A stretch of DNA of 64,000 nucleotides from Chitinophaga alhagiae (lineage in GTDB: Bacteria; Bacteroidota; Bacteroidia; Chitinophagales; Chitinophagaceae), in contig NZ_QXMH01000004.1 in the NCBI RefSeq assembly GCF_003568665.1, positions 476,942-540,941 on the forward strand, given 5' to 3'. Made by a program: the position numbers and the translations under genes. Positions 49,132 through 62,417 of the stretch are shown one piece after another. Positions within the stretch are counted from its first letter, which is position 1; each line of letters begins with the position of its first letter. The notes beneath the pieces are model-generated. The model was not told where the DNA came from and made no database searches. It saw only the letters and a list, made by a program, of their open reading frames with translations.

Positions 49132-51510
49132 TTATTCAGACCGCAGGCTAACCACCGGGTTGGCCAGCGCCGCCCGCAGGGCCTGGTACCCTACCGTGGC
49201 CAGGGCCACCAGCAAGGCCAGTCCGCCGGCCAGCGCAAACATCCACCAGTGGAGGGAAATGCGGTAGGCAAAGTCTTCCAGCCACATGCCCGTCATCCAC
49301 CAGGCCAGGGGAATGGCCAGCAGCGCGGAGAGCAGCACCAGCTTCAGGAAATCGCGGGAGAGCATGCCGGTAATATCGGCGGCGGAAGCGCCCAGCACCT
49401 TGCGGATGCCTATTTCCCGGGTACGCTGCTCCGCCGTGAAAGCGGCCAGCCCGAACAGGCCCAGGCAGGCTATAAAAACGGCCAGCGCCGTAAACACTAC
49501 GAACACGCGGCCCTGCGCCTGCTCCGAATGGTACTGCCGGGCAAAGTCATCGTCAATAAAATGCGCTTCCAGCGGGTAGTTCTTTTCGAACTGCGCATAT
49601 ACTTTTTCAATATGCCGCAGCCCTTCGGGAATATGCCCCTTCTGCAGGCGCACGTACAGGTTATCTTCCCATGACGGGCTGGGCGGCATCATCAGGGCTA
49701 CGGGCGCTATTTTATGCTGGAGGGAATAAATATGAAAGTCTTTCACCACACCAATGATGCGGCGCTCCCGCACACTGTCTGCCGTAAACTGCACCCGCTT
49801 GCCAACAGGGTTTTGCAGGCCCATTTCCTTCACCATCGTTTCATTCACCAGCATGCCGGTATAACGGTCTGTGTGCGTGAAATTGCGGCCTTCCAGCAGT
49901 TTCAGGCCCATGGTGGCTATAAAATCTTCGTCTACTTTAAAGTTCTGCGTAATGAGGGAGGCTACTTCAAACTTGCCGTCTTTCTCCGCCCTGAAGCCGT
50001 TGGAACCAATGTTGTTCCGGCCAATGGGGTTGCTGGAAGAAGCCACGCTTTCGATGTGCGGGCTCTTTTTCAGCTCCGCCTTGATGGCCGCCACGCTGTT
50101 GCGCATGGCCTGGCTGTGCAGGTGAAAGGTCAGCACCTGGTCTTTCTGGAAACCCAGGTCTTTCTGCTGCATGAACCGCATTTGCAGCCAGCATACCAGT
50201 GAAACGGCTATCAGCACAATGGCCGCCGTGAACTGGAAAGACACCAGCGCCTTCCGGAACGAAGCAGTACCAAAATTGTTGCCCAGCCTGCCTTTGAGGG
50301 CATTCACCGTTCTGAAGCCAGACATGAAGAACGCCGGGTAGGAACCCGCCAGCAAACCGGCCAGCAGCGCAAACGCGCCCAATGCCGTTAACGTATAGCC
50401 CATGCCGTATTGCCAGAGAGACAAAGCGGTGCCGGCCATGGTATTGAAATACGGCAATACCACCGAGGTGAGCGCCATAGCCAGCATGGCCGCCAGCAGC
50501 GTGAGCAGCACGGACTCCGTCAGGAAAAGCGCGGCCACCTGCCTCCTCACGGAGCCGAGCGATTTGCGCACGCCTATTTCCTTTATTCTTACAGCGGAGC
50601 GGGCGGTGGAAATGTTCATGTAGTTGATGCAGGCAATGAGCAGGATGAGCACCGCCACCATGCCGTACAGGTAGGTATTGCGCAGGCTGCCGTTGGGGCT
50701 TAGCTCGTAGCTGAGGGCGGAACGCAGGTGAATATCCCGGAGGGGCTGCATGTCCAGGCGGAAGTTGATCCCGTCTCCCATTTCTGCCCGCAGGTACCGG
50801 TCATAAAACTGCCGCAGGCGGTTGTTGAGCGTGGCAATGCTGGCGCCGGGCCTCAGCAGCAGGTACGTGTACAGGTTAAAGTTCTGGATGCCGTCCGAGA
50901 AATTGGCGGGCAGGGCGCGCACCGCCTCAAACCGCAAATGCGAGTTGGCCGGCACGTCTTTTATAATGCCGGTAATGGTGTTGGCCTGCTGCATGTCCCA
51001 GGTGACCTGCTGGCCCAGGGCTGCCTCCGGCGTACCGAAAAACCGGCGGGCCAGGGATTCAGACACCACTACCCCATCCGGCGCAGACAGGGCGGTAGCC
51101 GGGTTGCCGGCCAGCATGGGGAAACTGAATATGCTGAAAAAAGTACTGTCCGCAAAAATGACCGCGCCCGTTTGCAGGCTTTTGCCGCCCGCGGTGAGCA
51201 AACCGCCGCCCTCTCCCAATATGCGCACATATTGCTCCACTTCCGGGTAATCCCGCTGCATAATGGGCCCCATGGGCGCGGAAGACACCGCCAGCTGCAG
51301 GTTGCTGCCCGGCCAGGAGGCCAATACCGCCGCGCGGTAAATGCGGCTGTTCTTCTCGTGAAACCGGTCATAACTCCATTCATTCCCCACATACAATAAA
51401 ATGACCCAGCACGCGGCCAGGCCAATAGCCAGCCCTGCCAGGTTGATAGCCGTGTAGGAACGGTATTTCCAGAGGTGGCGCAGCGCTATTTTGAAGTGAT
51501 TGCGGAACAT
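49132..51510 (-). CDS. MacB/FtsX-type ABC transporter permease
   Basis: About 792 residues from ATG 51510 (MFRNHFKIALRHLWKYRSYT, the usual opening of this family); an in-frame start at 51537 lies in the upstream repeat. Helix 1 (AINLAGLAIGLAACWVILLYVG) is followed by a MacB periplasmic domain (about 40-265), three helices with IKEIGVRKSLGSVRR, a linker, a second helix/periplasmic domain and three more helices with TREIGIRKVLGAS, ending FSLRSE-like NPVVSLRSE. No ATP-binding domain. The upstream region carries two TGTCC-type palindromes and a TGGTACG element (see there), shared with the permease at 58193-60556. Substrate unknown; relatives export peptides, antibiotics or lipoproteins. Confidence 0.92.
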   Translation of the reverse strand: MFRNHFKIALRHLWKYRSYTAINLAGLAIGLAACWVILLYVGNEWSYDRFHEKNSRIYRAAVLASWPGSNLQLAVSSAPMGPIMQRDYPEVEQYVRILGEGGGLLTAGGKSLQTGAVIFADSTFFSIFSFPMLAGNPATALSAPDGVVVSESLARRFFGTPEAALGQQVTWDMQQANTITGIIKDVPANSHLRFEAVRALPANFSDGIQNFNLYTYLLLRPGASIATLNNRLRQFYDRYLRAEMGDGINFRLDMQPLRDIHLRSALSYELSPNGSLRNTYLYGMVAVLILLIACINYMNISTARSAVRIKEIGVRKSLGSVRRQVAALFLTESVLLTLLAAMLAMALTSVVLPYFNTMAGTALSLWQYGMGYTLTALGAFALLAGLLAGSYPAFFMSGFRTVNALKGRLGNNFGTASFRKALVSFQFTAAIVLIAVSLVCWLQMRFMQQKDLGFQKDQVLTFHLHSQAMRNSVAAIKAELKKSPHIESVASSSNPIGRNNIGSNGFRAEKDGKFEVASLITQNFKVDEDFIATMGLKLLEGRNFTHTDRYTGMLVNETMVKEMGLQNPVGKRVQFTADSVRERRIIGVVKDFHIYSLQHKIAPVALMMPPSPSWEDNLYVRLQKGHIPEGLRHIEKVYAQFEKNYPLEAHFIDDDFARQYHSEQAQGRVFVVFTALAVFIACLGLFGLAAFTAEQRTREIGIRKVLGASAADITGMLSRDFLKLVLLSALLAIPLAWWMTGMWLEDFAYRISLHWWMFALAGGLALLVALATVGYQALRAALANPVVSLRSE

Positions 51511-51536
51511 TGGGTATACATTTTGTGTTGATATCA

Positions 51537-51565
51537 TGACAGGTTAAAAATCGTACCACCTGTCA
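51537..51565. repeat. 8-bp inverted repeat between divergent genes
   Basis: TGACAGGT (51537-51544) and ACCTGTCA (51558-51565), 13 nt apart. It embraces the TGGTACG element of the permease promoter and could bind a repressor or form a hairpin. Confidence 0.45.
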
Positions 51566-51637
51566 ATTAACTGGCAATCAATTGATTACCATTAAGTGAT
51601 TGTCCATTTCAGTACAATGCCCGTCCGTTTCCGGACA
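51543..51637 (-). promoter_or_regulatory. candidate sigma-54-type promoter with two upstream palindromes
   Basis: On the minus strand TGGTACG (51558-51552) has a -24-like form, but the -12 part is TTAA instead of TTGC, so the promoter is weak. Upstream lie two tandem palindromes 21 bp apart: TGTCCATTTCAGTACA (51601-51616) and CGTCCGTTTCCGGACA (51622-51637). They resemble enhancer-binding-protein sites. The same design precedes the permease at 60556. Confidence 0.5.
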
Positions 51638-51720
51638 ACCGGCGCGCCTGCCAGGCTGAACGGCCGGCAGGTAAAGGTTGCCCGGGGCACTTCCAGTCAT
51701 CTTAAAAACAGACCGCGCGT

Positions 51721-52929
51721 ATGGACCTGCAAGCTGGTTACCCCTATTCATTGGTAAAATACGGCCTGCCCAATGATTATCCAAAACTGGACCGTGACCT
51801 CCGTACAACCGTTGCCGTTATTGGCGGCGGCATCTCCGGCGCGCTCACCGCGCACGCGCTGGTGCAGGCGGGCATTGCATGTGTAGTGCTGGATGCCCGC
51901 ACCGTGGGCCTGGGCAGCACCGTTGCCAGCACTTCCCTGCTGCAATATGAAATAGATGTACCGCTGAGCAAACTCATCCCGCAGATAGGCCGCAGCCGCG
52001 CGGAACGGGCCTACCGGCTTTGCGCTGACGCCATTGCCGCACTGGCCGGTATCAGCAAACGCCTGCCGGGCGTACCCTTTGACAGGAGACCCAGCCTCTA
52101 CCTGGCCTCTTATCAAAAACACCTGTCGCTGATTATAGCGGAACACAAAGCCCGCCGCGCCATGGGGCTGGACGTAGTGCTTTGGGACGCGGACACCGTT
52201 AAGCACACCATTGGCCTCGATGCGCCCGGCGGCATCTATTCCCGCACCGGCGCGCAAACAGACGCCTACCTCCTCACCCACGGCCTGCACCGGTACAATA
52301 TCAAAAAAGGCGCGCAGGTGTATGACAGAACGCTGGTCACCCACATCCGCCACCATAAAAAAGGCGCGGTGCTCACCACGGCCACCGGCCACACCGTACA
52401 CACCCGCAAAATAATAGTAGCCACCGGGTACGAATCCCTGCAATACATCCGCGAAAAGATCGTAGACCTCCGCTCCACCTACGCCATAGCCGGCGAACAT
52501 GGCGAAACGGCCACGCCCTGGTATGAGAACTGCCTGATATGGGAAACAAAAGACCCCTACCTGTACCTGCGTACCACGCCAGATAAGCGCATTGTGGCCG
52601 GCGGGCGGGATGAGCAATTCTACAGCCCCGCCCGGCGGGACAAGCTGCTGAAACGCAAAACGCGCCAGCTGGAGCAGGACGTGCGGCGCCTGTTCCCCCA
52701 CCTCCCTTTCCATGCGGAATTTAGCTGGACGGGCACCTTTGGCAGCACGCAAGACGGCCTGCCCTACATTGGCGAATACCCCCGCATGCCGCATACCTTT
52801 TTTGCCCTTGGTTTTGGCGGCAACGGCATCACCTTCAGCCAGGTGGCGGCGGATATTGTCTGCCGCCTTGTACAGGGCCGAAAGCACCCCGATGCGGCGC
52901 TGTTCTCCTTCAGCCGGTATAAGGGATAA
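51721..52929 (+). CDS. FAD-dependent oxidoreductase (DAO family)
   Basis: 402 residues. The Rossmann motif is VAVIGGGISGALTAHALVQAG (about 31-50), then VVLDARTVGLGSTVASTSLLQYE, a substrate domain, and the closing FAD contact GLPYIGEYPRMPHTFFALGFGGNGITFSQVAADI. It is a cytoplasmic flavoprotein that oxidises an amine or amino-acid-like substrate; which one is not evident. Divergent from the FtsX permease and sharing its control region. The FrnE-like gene follows after 32 bp. Confidence 0.85.
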   Translation: MDLQAGYPYSLVKYGLPNDYPKLDRDLRTTVAVIGGGISGALTAHALVQAGIACVVLDARTVGLGSTVASTSLLQYEIDVPLSKLIPQIGRSRAERAYRLCADAIAALAGISKRLPGVPFDRRPSLYLASYQKHLSLIIAEHKARRAMGLDVVLWDADTVKHTIGLDAPGGIYSRTGAQTDAYLLTHGLHRYNIKKGAQVYDRTLVTHIRHHKKGAVLTTATGHTVHTRKIIVATGYESLQYIREKIVDLRSTYAIAGEHGETATPWYENCLIWETKDPYLYLRTTPDKRIVAGGRDEQFYSPARRDKLLKRKTRQLEQDVRRLFPHLPFHAEFSWTGTFGSTQDGLPYIGEYPRMPHTFFALGFGGNGITFSQVAADIVCRLVQGRKHPDAALFSFSRYKG

Positions 52930-58192: not shown

Positions 58193-60556
58193 TTACTCCG
58201 TTCTCAAACTATGCACCGGGTTGGCCAATGCCGCCCGCACCGCCTGGTAACTGATAGTGAAGCAGGTGATAAGCAGTGTGACCGCGCCGGCCAGTACAAA
58301 CATGCCAACGCCGGGCGTGATGTGATAGGCAAACCCTTCCAGCCAGCGGTGGGTGGCCCACCAGGCCAGGGGCAGCGCAATCAGCACGGCCAATGCCACC
58401 AGCTTCAGGAACTCGCGGGAAAGCAGCATCACCACGTTGCTCACGGAAGCGCCTACCACCTTGCGCACGCCTATTTCCTTTTGCCTGCGCTGGGCGGTGT
58501 AAGCAGCCAGGCCAAAGAGGCCCAGGCAGGATATCAGGATGGCCAGCCCGGCAAAATACCGGCTCAGGATGCCGATCCTTTTTTCGGAAGCATACATTTT
58601 CTGGTACCCTTCGTCCAGGAACTGGTAATCGAAGCTGAAGCCGGGGTTAAACTGGCGGTAGAGCTGCTCCAGGCCCGCAATGGTCTCCTTTTCACGGCCC
58701 GCCTGTATTTTGATGACGGCCGCATAGGTAGCGCCGGGGTTCAGGCGGAAAAACACCGGCTTTACACTTTCGTGCAAAGACTCGAAGTGAAAATCTTTTA
58801 CCACCCCAATGATGTGGCGGGTCTCTCCCCAGAGCTGCACGGTTTTACCCAGCGGCTCCTTCATGCCCATATACCTGATAGCGGCCTCATTAAAAATAAT
58901 GGCATTGCTGTCTGAGGCCAGATCTCTTGAGAATGCCCGCCCAGCTACTACCTGGAAACCCATGGTTTCCTCCATGCTGTATGAAACGGCAATGTTCTCG
59001 AACTCCGTTCTGTCTTCCGGGTCGCGGCCCGGCCATTGCACGCCGGAAGTGCCGCTGTTATGCCCCGTCATGTTGTGGGCCATATAGGTGGCGCTGACAA
59101 CGCCCGGTACGTTCCTTACACGGGCCATAAAGGTCTCCAGGTGCTCTTCAGCGCCCAGCTTGCCTTCCCGGGTGAACATGATCACATTGTCCCTTTTATA
59201 GCCGAGGTTCTTGTTCTGCACAAACGCGATCTGCTGGTACACCACCATCACAGACACGATCAATACAGCGGATATAGCGAACTGGAAAACCACCAGGCCC
59301 TTGCGCACCCACAGTTCCCCGGCGGAGCCGGCCAGCCGGCCTTTCAGCACGGCAATGGGCTTGAAGCCAGACAGGTAAAGAGCCGGGTAACTGCCGGCCA
59401 GCAGCCCGGTAACAAAGGTGATAAGCACAAAAGCGCCGGTCATCCCGGGTGTAACCGCAAGCGCCAGTTGTTTGCCCGTAATGTTGTTGAAAGACGGCAG
59501 CAGCAGGGCCACCAGCAACACCGCCACCGCCAGGGCCATGAAGGTGAGCAGCACGCTCTCCCCCATATATTGCAACATCAGTGACGCCCTGCTGGCGCCG
59601 GCCACTTTCTTGATACCGATCTCCTTCATTCTCCTGGCCGCCCTGGCCGTGGAAAGGTTCATGAAATTGATGCTGGCAATGAGCAGGATGAATACCGCTA
59701 TGATGATGAACATCTTTACATAGGTAATGCGCCCGCCGCTGGCTACGCCATTCTCATAACTGCCATGCAGGTAGTTTTCGGAATATAGTTTGAGGAACGG
59801 CGTGCGGTGCTTGACCTCGCCATTGGTCTGTTTCTTTACAAAACCGGCCAGCCTGCTGTTAAACCGGGCCAGGTCAGTGCCTTCCCGCAACAGTACGCGG
59901 GTATGCGCGCCGGTATTGCCCCAGCTGCCAACGTATGGGTTGGTATCGAACAGTATCTGGACCGGCAGCAGAAAGTCGAACTGCTCGGTAGCATTTGCCG
60001 GCCCGGGCCTGAACACGCCAGACACGGTATATTGCTCCTGGTGCTGCAGCGCAATGGTTTTCCCGATTATGTTTTCCGTGGTATTGAACAGCTTGCGGGC
60101 AAGGGTTTCAGACAATACAATGGAATTTTTACCCGCCAGCGCCTGGTCAGCATTGCCCTGCAGCAAGGGATAAGAGAACATCCTGAAAAAATCCGGGCCG
60201 GTGTACTTCCCATTGGCCCGCACGTCATTTTGCTGCACGCTGAGGGTGGCATTGTCAAACGGCCGCTCCGTAACCGCATATTCCACTTCCGGCATTTCCG
60301 CTTTCATGGCAGCCGCCATGGGGCCGGAGGTGGTGGGGGATGTCCAGATGCCGCCGGCGCGGGCGCGGTTTTCCATTACCCGGTACAACCTGCTGTCTTT
60401 TTCATTGAACCTGTCTACCGCCAGTTCGTCCGCTACCCACAAGTAAATAAATAAAGCGCAGGCAAGGCCCGTGGAAAGGCCTACCAGATTGAGCATAGAC
60501 GATTGCCTGTTTTTCAGCAGGCTGCGCCAGGCCATTTTGAAGTAGTTTTTCAGCAT
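58193..60556 (-). CDS. MacB/FtsX-type ABC transporter permease
   Basis: 787 residues (MLKNYFKMAWRSLLKNRQSSMLN...). Helix 1 (LVGLSTGLACALFIYLWVADEL), a MacB periplasmic domain (about 40-270), three helices with MKEIGIKKVAGASRAS, a linker, then the second domain and three helices with QKEIGVRKVVGASVSN, ending NPVHSLRTE. Closely parallels the permease at 49132-51510 in size and motif order. Its upstream region has the better of the two candidate sigma-54 promoters with tandem palindromes. Confidence 0.93.
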   Translation of the reverse strand: MLKNYFKMAWRSLLKNRQSSMLNLVGLSTGLACALFIYLWVADELAVDRFNEKDSRLYRVMENRARAGGIWTSPTTSGPMAAAMKAEMPEVEYAVTERPFDNATLSVQQNDVRANGKYTGPDFFRMFSYPLLQGNADQALAGKNSIVLSETLARKLFNTTENIIGKTIALQHQEQYTVSGVFRPGPANATEQFDFLLPVQILFDTNPYVGSWGNTGAHTRVLLREGTDLARFNSRLAGFVKKQTNGEVKHRTPFLKLYSENYLHGSYENGVASGGRITYVKMFIIIAVFILLIASINFMNLSTARAARRMKEIGIKKVAGASRASLMLQYMGESVLLTFMALAVAVLLVALLLPSFNNITGKQLALAVTPGMTGAFVLITFVTGLLAGSYPALYLSGFKPIAVLKGRLAGSAGELWVRKGLVVFQFAISAVLIVSVMVVYQQIAFVQNKNLGYKRDNVIMFTREGKLGAEEHLETFMARVRNVPGVVSATYMAHNMTGHNSGTSGVQWPGRDPEDRTEFENIAVSYSMEETMGFQVVAGRAFSRDLASDSNAIIFNEAAIRYMGMKEPLGKTVQLWGETRHIIGVVKDFHFESLHESVKPVFFRLNPGATYAAVIKIQAGREKETIAGLEQLYRQFNPGFSFDYQFLDEGYQKMYASEKRIGILSRYFAGLAILISCLGLFGLAAYTAQRRQKEIGVRKVVGASVSNVVMLLSREFLKLVALAVLIALPLAWWATHRWLEGFAYHITPGVGMFVLAGAVTLLITCFTISYQAVRAALANPVHSLRTE

Positions 60557-60583
60557 AAGGTAAGCATCATGGACACTCCCGGC

Positions 60584-60687
60584 GCTAATTCGGTACCACT
60601 TTGCGAGGCATTGTATATAAAAGGGAAACAGATGATCAAATTCACCATATGTCCATTTTCAGGATAGCTGTTGTCCGGAATCGGACA
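60584..60687 (-). promoter_or_regulatory. candidate sigma-54 promoter and two upstream palindromes
   Basis: On the minus strand TGGTACCGAATTAGC (60598-60584) keeps the GG-N10-GC spacing of -24/-12 promoters and lies 28 bp before the permease ATG. Upstream are TGTCCATTTTCAGGAT (60650-60665) and the perfect 16-bp palindrome TGTCCGGAATCGGACA (60672-60687), 22 bp apart. The distance (about 50-90 bp upstream of the -24 element) fits enhancer-binding-protein sites. Confidence 0.6.
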
Positions 60688-60689
60688 GC

Positions 60690-62417
60690 TTATTCAGACC
60701 GTACTACCGCTCCCCCGCGGGAGGTGCCGTTTTCATTAATGGCCTCTATGGAGAAATAATAGGGCCGTTCTTTATCCATTCCCTTGAAATAGTATTCATT
60801 GCCGCCATGTACCATGATGCAGTTGTACAGTTTGTTTGGCGCTATGCCCACGTAAATGTTATAGGCATACGCACTTGTTACCGGCGCCCATTTCAGCCAG
60901 GCGCTCCGTTTATCTTTCTCCGTGCGGAGCACCACAAAATCTTTGACCGTATCTGGCGGAGCGCCGCTGCCTTTGCCAAACGCGCGCAGGCCGCTGATGG
61001 CAAACTTGCCCGTGGGCATGTGTATGTTTTCCAGCTTGATGAAACGGGCCTTTACAGGCTGCGGCAGCTCCACGTAATCATGCGGCACATCCTGCCGGTT
61101 GTTGCTTTTGTCCGCAAGCAGTTTCCACCGCCGCCCATCCAGCGAGTAATACAGTGTATACTGGTGATAAGTGCCTTGCTGCTTGCCGAGAAATTCCGCG
61201 TCCTGGTCCGCATAATTGATCTGGACGGCATGTACCGTGCCGGCGGCGCCCAGGTCTGTGCTGATCCATTCCCCCTTGTTGCCGGTGGCCGCGCTCCAGT
61301 AGGTCTTTATATTTTCATCTACCGCGTAATTGGGCAGGTAACCGCCTAATGTAGAAGACACCTGTACCGGCCGCTGGTAGTTCAGCAGCATCCAGCCGGT
61401 AAAGTAACTGTCGCCATTGGGCTGCAGGTAATGCGGGTAATCCCCGAAGGCGGTGTTGCAGTACATCACACCGTCCTGATCAAACCCCGCCGGCCAGATA
61501 CCGATGCGGCGCTCAAAATTGTTCTTGACAGATACCACTACGGTAGACACGTGCCAGTAATGCCCATTGTTATCTTTGAAAGTACTGCCATGACCCGCGC
61601 CGCGGGCAAAGCCGCCGGGCTTGTAAGCAAACGGATTGTGCGCCTGCGGCGTGAAAGGCCCGAGGGGATGATCTCCCACCACCACGCCGTCCGCATACCC
61701 GCTGAACTCGGTGCCCGGCGCCCCGTATTGCAGGTAGTACTTCCCGTTATGTTTGGTCATGTGTGCGCCCTCAATAAAAGGATCGAGGAAAGTATTGTCG
61801 CTGTACTCTCCAAAGCGCTGCCAGCCGTAGCGCCAGTCTTCCAGGAGGTACATTTCCCTGCGCGTGCCCAGCGGCTGCAGGGTTTTCCGGTCCAGCTCCA
61901 CACCGTAGAGCGGGTAGCGGTTGCTGCTGCCGTTGTACATGTAGAGGCGGCCGTCATCATCCGGGAAAAGATCAGGGTCCCAGCCGCCAATAGCAAAGGA
62001 GTTTACAGCTTCTTTCCACTCGTTGCCCCTGGGGTTGGTGCTCATCCATATGGGGAAATTGGTGGAATAGGTGGAGCCGAATACCAGCATGGTATCTCCC
62101 ATCACGGCCACTGCCGGGGCGCACAGCTCGTCGTACACCTTATGCCAGGGTTTGAGGAACCGGCGTGACACAAAATGCCAGTTGAGCATGTTGCTGCTCC
62201 ACCAGTATCCCCACTGGTTGGTAGAGAAGAGGTAATAATCGCCCTTGTAGTTAACGATCACCGGGTCTGCCGTAGCGCGGTGTTTGCCCCAGGCGGCAAA
62301 ATCGGGGATGGGCGTATAGCCGTAGTCAATGTTGACAGGGTTGCAGTATGTACGCTGCTGCGCCTGTAGCGGCGCGGCCAACAGCAGCAAGAGGCATGCG
62401 GACAAAATGGTTCTCAT
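60690..62417 (-). CDS. secreted GH43 glycoside hydrolase with CBM32-like and FN3 domains
   Basis: 575 residues from ATG 62417 (MRTILSACLLLLLAAPLQAQ signal peptide); an in-frame start at 62471 would add charged residues before the signal. The five-bladed propeller of GH43 begins near residue 30: the base Asp is in ATADPVIVNYKGDYYLFST, the pKa-modulating Asp in GGWDPDLFPDDDGRLY, and the acid Glu in DPFIEGAHMTKHNGKYYL. A discoidin/CBM32-like domain follows (about 345-480, SSTLGGYLPNYAVDENIKTYWS, INYADQDAEF) and a fibronectin-III-like domain ends the chain (AWLKWAPVTSAYAYNIYVG). It should act on arabinose- or xylose-containing glycans. Confidence 0.9.
   Translation of the reverse strand: MRTILSACLLLLLAAPLQAQQRTYCNPVNIDYGYTPIPDFAAWGKHRATADPVIVNYKGDYYLFSTNQWGYWWSSNMLNWHFVSRRFLKPWHKVYDELCAPAVAVMGDTMLVFGSTYSTNFPIWMSTNPRGNEWKEAVNSFAIGGWDPDLFPDDDGRLYMYNGSSNRYPLYGVELDRKTLQPLGTRREMYLLEDWRYGWQRFGEYSDNTFLDPFIEGAHMTKHNGKYYLQYGAPGTEFSGYADGVVVGDHPLGPFTPQAHNPFAYKPGGFARGAGHGSTFKDNNGHYWHVSTVVVSVKNNFERRIGIWPAGFDQDGVMYCNTAFGDYPHYLQPNGDSYFTGWMLLNYQRPVQVSSTLGGYLPNYAVDENIKTYWSAATGNKGEWISTDLGAAGTVHAVQINYADQDAEFLGKQQGTYHQYTLYYSLDGRRWKLLADKSNNRQDVPHDYVELPQPVKARFIKLENIHMPTGKFAISGLRAFGKGSGAPPDTVKDFVVLRTEKDKRSAWLKWAPVTSAYAYNIYVGIAPNKLYNCIMVHGGNEYYFKGMDKERPYYFSIEAINENGTSRGGAVVRSE

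Follow-up and report, generated by a model that had tools for sequence, protein, structure and literature searches.

Paired operators and sigma-54-type elements upstream of FtsX permease genes in Chitinophaga alhagiae: probable promoters of an NtrC-family regulon that includes a small RNA

Two Permease Genes and Their Upstream Regions

The window, which is the whole stretch of 64,000 nucleotides analysed here and corresponds to G000:C10:476942–540941, carries two genes for double MacB_PCD-FtsX permeases on the minus strand, at 58193–60556 (787 aa) and at 49132–51510, and Pfam finds two stretches of each domain in both products. Both genes are predicted targets of the regulation discussed below. 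The permease at 58193–60556 shares 50% identity over about 490 aa with a permease on C12 of the same genome (L144), which has the same promoter architecture. For the gene at 49132–51510, the longest open reading frame begins at 51537, and the start at 51510 yields the N-terminus of the family, MFRNHFKIA.

Upstream of the first gene, a sigma-54 −24/−12 element, TGGTACCGAATTAGC, lies at 60584–60598 on the minus strand, and 27 nt separate it from the ATG at 60556. The GG-N10-GC signature that the first-pass annotation had reported is present in this element. The distal operator, TGTCCGATTCCGGACA on the minus strand at 60672–60687, starts 89 bp before the −24 element and reads TGTCCG-GAAT-CGGACA, where the 6-bp arms are perfect and the 4-bp centre is non-palindromic. 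The second operator, at 60650–60665 on the minus strand and 22 bp from the first, is a half-site only (TGTCCATTTTCAGGAT; the plus strand reads TGTCC from 60650, the minus strand GGACA), and a weight-matrix scan gave no good full second operator at 60.6 kb. The earlier description of tandem TGTCC sites holds for the 22-bp spacing and for the perfect palindrome arms, but the second site is half of one.

At the second gene, operator 1 (TGTCCGGAAACGGACG on the minus strand, reading CGTCCG-N4-CGGACA) is located at 51622–51637, 79 bp before the −24 element, and operator 2 (TGTCCATTTCAGTACA, minus strand) at 51601–51616, 21 bp from operator 1. The sigma-54-like element TGGTACGATTTTTAA at 51544–51558 on the minus strand has a good −24 with its GG; however, its −12 is degenerate, with AA instead of GC. 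The same layout had been claimed for this permease. This is true of the operators and only half true of the promoter, because the −12 at 51.5 kb reads AA. The motif TAnnTTTG is absent from the 204 bp upstream of the first gene (60557–60760) and from the 250 bp upstream of the second (51511–51760), so that a rival promoter of this type, one of the refuting outcomes named in the first-pass annotation, was found at neither permease.

When the window was divided into 318 overlapping 400-bp tiles, the operator pair occurred in four, all of them over the two permease sites. This confinement to the two permease promoters agrees with the earlier statement that a layout shared by chance is unlikely. 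The sigma-54 consensus alone, at two mismatches or fewer, is no commoner than chance (59 seen versus 71 expected) and is therefore informative only when combined with the operator.

Operators and Promoters across the Genome

The exact palindrome occurs at eight places in the 6.13-Mb genome, compared to two for the reversed pattern. Seven of the eight (C1:2051518, C10:136115, C10:537613, C10:565888, C11:232562, C12:19686 and C13:28620) head FtsX genes or operons, and the eighth (C10:375790) heads a putative small-RNA gene. Palindromes at random positions, the other refuting outcome named beforehand, were thus not seen. The operators are 16 bp long, follow TGTNCG-N4-CGNACA and are mostly paired 20–22 bp apart, which corresponds to two helical turns.

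With imperfect sites included, 12 promoters of the genome combine the operator with a sigma-54 element: the eight exact-palindrome sites, two on C8 (L060, L061), one on C11 (L067) and the 51.6-kb site of the window. Twelve of the 16 double-FtsX genes of the genome, including the three of the C1 operon, stand behind ten of these promoters, and the remaining four (L052, L062, L063 and C10:477069) have no operator plus sigma-54 site. The promoter at C10:565888 (L066) is weak, as its −24 starts with AGG and its −12 ends in GA, and the −12 of the C1 operon itself reads TTGG. No good full second operator was obtained for L064, L066 and L070 in the weight-matrix scan.

The final scan of own DNA used the operator weight matrix together with a plain sigma-54 consensus score, and it covered a sample of 315 kb consisting of the window and of regions picked around FtsX and activator genes. 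In this sample, one combination of operator and box lies away from FtsX and RNA genes (L061:5707), and some weaker boxes flank real operators on the opposite side. A weight-matrix model of the sigma-54 box was tried and rejected. It missed the 60.6-kb promoter, because the matches on which it was trained had to read TTGC, and it chose a different box at 51.5 kb.

An NtrC-Family Regulator beside the Operator

The genome has one RpoN, with a single Sigma54_DBD match at C1:1928793–1929266, and 11 Sigma54_activat matches, of which seven are strong; two of the strong ones (C1:2050401 and C13:34977) lie beside palindromes and FtsX genes. The first of these belongs to G000:C1:2050002–2051345, which lies outside the window and encodes a response regulator of the NtrC family with a receiver, a Sigma54_activat AAA+ domain and a Fis-type HTH (PF00072, PF00158 and PF02954, all above the cut-off). 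A histidine kinase gene comes next after it (HATPase_c in L051:2665–3996). In the other direction the regulator is divergent from genes for HlyD, an ABC ATPase and three double-FtsX permeases, and an operator pair lies between. A sigma-54 activator gene does therefore adjoin another copy of the operator, as the first-pass annotation had suggested looking for, and its proposal that an NtrC-like regulator outside the window controls the permeases is supported by sequence comparison, with the C1 regulator as the candidate and RpoN encoded in the genome.

An orthologue of the C1 regulator with at least 78% identity occurs once per genome in all 36 genus genomes, one copy being a fragment. In 23 genomes from elsewhere in the order, none was found at E ≤ 1e-120. 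Of the 36 loci, 30 were fetched, and in 28 of these the 400 bp upstream hold two operators at a spacing of exactly 21 bp; two have no operator pair. Such a 21-bp pair appeared in none of 1500 dinucleotide shuffles. The loop of the C1 regulator reads GAFTDA where GAFTGA is usual, and all 59 regulators examined read G[AS][FY]TDA at this place; GAFTDA is listed as a tolerated variant in passages of PMC4641369. In all 59 homologue loci an open reading frame of kinase size (428–463 aa) follows the regulator, Pfam having been run on the kinase of the own genome only. In 57 of the 59 kinase N-termini, the loop between the first two hydrophobic stretches measures 25 residues or fewer by a crude hydropathy measure, in which some calls split one helix. 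On these comparisons, the C1 regulator is the likely activator of the operator promoters.

A second regulator, at G000:C13:34554–35900, also carries GAFTDA and lies inside its own row of HlyD-OEP-ABC-FtsX-FtsX genes. Its recognition helix is nearly identical to that of the C1 regulator (TRSALYRRLEKYNI in C13 and SRAALYRRMEKYNL in C1), and the row carries the palindrome TGTCCGGAACCGGACA 67 bp before the sigma-54 element TGGCACCGCGCTTGA. Because of this near-identical helix and the palindrome at its own operon, the assignment of the operators to a single regulator is tentative. It is conceivable that the C13 paralogue reads these operators or that both regulators share them, which we regard as unlikely but worth serious consideration. 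Against it stands the linkage to the operator pair surveyed for the C1-type regulator, which holds in 28 of the 30 genus loci and in most loci of the phylum. The C13 row as a whole (G000:C13:28620–37150, L070) is a complete HlyD-OEP-ABC-FtsX-FtsX-regulator-kinase row with the same palindrome, and cross-talk between the two systems is possible.

Spacing and Helical Phasing

Each distance given here is counted from where the distal or main operator begins up to the T of the −24 element. The values for the 12 own promoters are 67, 69, 79, 79, 89, 89, 89, 89, 90, 90, 91 and 101 bp. With the period varied from 10 to 11.5 bp, the vector length peaks at 0.92, a value reached in none of 20,000 random draws from 45–115; when the two weakest promoters (L066 and 51.6 kb) were left out, two of 20,000 draws reached the vector length. 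The activator sites of the own promoters thus lie upstream and in phase.

The scan for operator plus sigma-54 element proposed in the first-pass annotation was run in the genus, using TGTCC-N6-GGACA followed by TGGNA-N6-TTGC, and gave 29 matches, spread over 15 of the 60 genomes, with none for the reversed pattern. Judged by eye from the N-termini, 23 of the matches precede FtsX permeases, three the small RNA, two a 95-aa protein and one another protein. Their distances are 58, 69–70 (11 matches), 79 and 88–91 bp (16 matches), and the vector length is 0.93 at 10.5 bp. The phasing counts of genus and phylum include orthologues, and the Rayleigh value for the 29 matches is overstated because orthologous promoters are among them. 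As a control for spacing, a −24/−12 element one base longer (TGGNA-N7-TTGC) gave four matches in the same 60 genomes, compared to 29. The longer variant TGGCA-N7-TTGC gave eight matches in the whole collection, from mixed phyla. The 95-aa protein (L129 and L138) is conserved and stands behind an identical layout of operator and sigma-54 element; the L129 protein has no Pfam match.

The Layout in Other Genera of Bacteroidota

A homologue of the C1 regulator at E ≤ 1e-100 is found in 58 of 198 genomes of the phylum, the own genome included. Among the 29 such loci fetched from other genera, 20 carry a divergent TGGYA-N6-TTG element 88–91 bp from the operator; of the remaining nine, two have the element at 81 and 99 bp and seven have none. 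The pattern TGTNCG-N4-CGNACA followed by TGGCA-N6-TTG has 39 matches in 27 of the 198 genomes, six of them in the own genome, and the reversed pattern never occurs. Thirty of the 39 matches were fetched and represent 30 distinct promoters, which by eye, from the N-termini, precede 20 HlyD-like genes, five FtsX permeases, two ABC ATPases and one regulator. The distance is 68–70 or 89–91 bp in 25 of the 30, and the two promoters that precede other genes do not share the main phase, their distances being 61 and 83 bp. At L230 (G290), L212 and L219, sigma-54-like boxes are also directed at the regulator gene, 90 bp from the operator, a sign that the regulator may control its own gene in some genomes.

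These counts bear on the nature of the promoters. If the operators were genuine but the regulator activated or repressed sigma-70-type promoters in the usual way, the TGGYA-TTGC boxes would be coincidental; the poor −12 at 51.5 kb and the chance frequency of sigma-54 boxes alone in the window fit such a situation. However, the correct spacing outnumbers the one that is longer by one base by 29 to 4, the operators are helically phased, the regulators carry a variant of the sigma-54 contact loop, and TAnnTTTG is missing upstream of the two window genes, which makes sigma-70-type promoters very improbable. The palindrome alone is moderately enriched in the genus, with 89 forward versus 48 reversed occurrences (sums over 36 genus genomes), and the occurrence of the reversed pattern here and in the own genome is what could be said for inverted repeats arising by chance or from a repeat element; this reading, already disfavoured by the absence of such pairs from the 1500 shuffles, is hardly credible in view of sites that precede FtsX genes, pair at 20–22 bp, are phased and recur in other genera.

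A Putative Small RNA behind the Same Layout

At C10:375790, an operator pair and TGGCATCAAAGTTGC are followed by about 110 nt that end in an intrinsic terminator and contain no gene. The small RNA is placed at C10:375587–375704; it is flanked by an MFS gene, recognised by Pfam, and by a convergent gene that looks by eye like a kinase gene. A covariance model was built from three genomes; it starts at TTGC, so that the operators and the −24 lie outside it. This model gave 16 matches in 79 genus genomes, and 11 of them (L148–L156, L160 and L161) have upstream operators 20–21 bp apart and TGG[CT]A-N6-TTG[CT]. Without the three seeds, which were themselves found via the operator, the pair is present at eight of 13 matches. 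The five matches with no operator pair are L157, L158, L159, L162 and L163. Among these, L158 and L163 look like chance, and L157, L159 and L162 represent a separate locus. A second model covers 15 genomes, the main nine among them.

The conserved parts of the small RNA are TAGCRA near the 5′ end, a hairpin loop TTGCTAC (ATGCTAC in L160 and L161) and the terminator. Pairing of TAGCRA with TTGCTA, together with the hairpin, would form a probable H-type pseudoknot. The hairpin arms vary between genomes yet remain complementary, a statement that leans on the choice of stem because the script that listed the arms picks the best one. Only five of the six pairs of the first helix were found in L160 and L161. 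Because the second helix was misaligned by MAFFT, RNAalifold recovered the first helix and the terminator only. When three members were folded singly, the z-scores were −2.5 to −2.8. Searches of Rfam gave no match at E ≤ 1 for three loci and none at the gathering score for six others. We infer that the small RNA is transcribed and that it would act by base pairing.

Between the operators and the −24 of the small RNA, L148–L156 have a conserved AT-rich element resembling TGATAATGA, which is possibly a DNA-bending site. The related locus with the same terminator (L157, L162/L254, L159/L258, L256 and L257, in other genus genomes) lies in L157, L162/L254 and L159/L258 behind a gene that by eye looks AraC-type. 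The sigma-54-like box GGCATCTAAGTTGA precedes it in L157, L162/L254, L256 and L257 and is degenerate in L159/L258. It has no operator pair, with one operator-like site in L159/L258, and is perhaps a second class of RNA under another activator.

Comparison with Known Systems

The Bce-type modules for antimicrobial peptides combine a short-loop, two-helix kinase with a neighbouring FtsX-fold ABC permease. The likeness to the present system rests on this kinase topology and on the neighbouring FtsX permeases; the Bce regulators differ in that they are OmpR-type and do not depend on sigma-54.

In Bacteroidia, sigma-54 promoters are statistically enriched upstream of COG0577 FtsX-like permeases, which was called first evidence (PMC12316311), and the link between sigma-54 and FtsX permeases is common to that work and to ours. 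The passages of PMC12316311 on those permeases name no activator, describe no operator or spacing rule and mention no small RNA, and the terms "small RNA" and "upstream activating" are absent from its main text. The CbrAB-CrcZ/CrcY system of Pseudomonas resembles the present one, according to passages of PMC6296734, in having a sigma-54 two-component activator, spaced subsites (20–25 bp apart on one helix face for CbrB) and small RNAs (CrcZ/CrcY) as well as protein genes among its targets. It differs in that the CbrB subsites are non-palindromic and serve carbon metabolism in Pseudomonas, and the likeness drawn here concerns the regulation. DVU1419 of Desulfovibrio vulgaris is, in the passages of PMC4641369, likewise a sigma-54 response regulator connected with envelope stress and posttranscriptional regulation and has an ncRNA target; unlike the C1 regulator, it has a GAFTGA loop, and it is listed with a different set of target genes, in a different organism. 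The sigma-54 regulon of Flavobacterium psychrophilum, also a member of Bacteroidota, comprises mapped sigma-54 promoters and in part envelope-stress genes, but the activators are unassigned in the passages of PMC9723704, from whose main text the word "permease" is absent. The words "Bacteroidetes" and "FtsX" do not occur in the main text of PMC3162934. The literature searched, mainly open-licence, contained no description that we could find of the regulator, of its operator, of the phasing or of the RNA, and nothing on TGTCCG operators with sigma-54 in Bacteroidota or on a sigma-54 RNA of Chitinophaga.

Proposed Mechanism and Significance

The two window sites are probably promoters of one sigma-54 regulon that would unite FtsX exporters and a small RNA under an NtrC-family regulator. 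In this layout, operators on one face of the helix lie 57–101 bp upstream of a TGGYA-N6-TTGC-type element. The layout precedes double-FtsX permease genes that stand alone, exporter operons of MacB type and the small RNA. The architecture, the phasing and the co-conservation of regulator and operator are read directly from the DNA, and the steps of binding, oligomerisation and looping are taken from established sigma-54 biology.

A histidine kinase in the membrane, whose predicted sensor consists of two helices with almost no loop, would phosphorylate the C1 NtrC-family regulator, which would then bind the operators as neighbouring dimers and form a ring. By DNA looping, this ring would contact RpoN-RNA polymerase through the GAFTDA loop and remodel the polymerase, which would turn on the set of permeases together with the small RNA and the HlyD-ABC-FtsX operon divergent from the regulator. 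The small RNA would presumably tune other genes by base pairing. The signal is likely to be membrane or antimicrobial stress, possibly sensed via the transporter itself, as suggested by the position of the short-loop kinase next to FtsX permeases.

More speculatively, and with clearly less confidence than in the regulon itself, this could be a phylum-wide envelope response in which a short-loop kinase sensing via its own FtsX exporter drives a GAFTDA sigma-54 regulator, to which Chitinophaga-like bacteria may have recruited stand-alone FtsX permeases and a pseudoknotted RNA that retunes the envelope.

This genome alone holds 16 double-FtsX permeases, and few sigma-54 regulons of Bacteroidota were found in the literature searched. 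A concrete candidate activator, an operator, a spacing rule, a list of targets and a putative sigma-54-driven small RNA are now offered for testing. If the proposal is true, it would supply a mechanism for the association of sigma-54 with FtsX permeases, which has been published as a statistical one.
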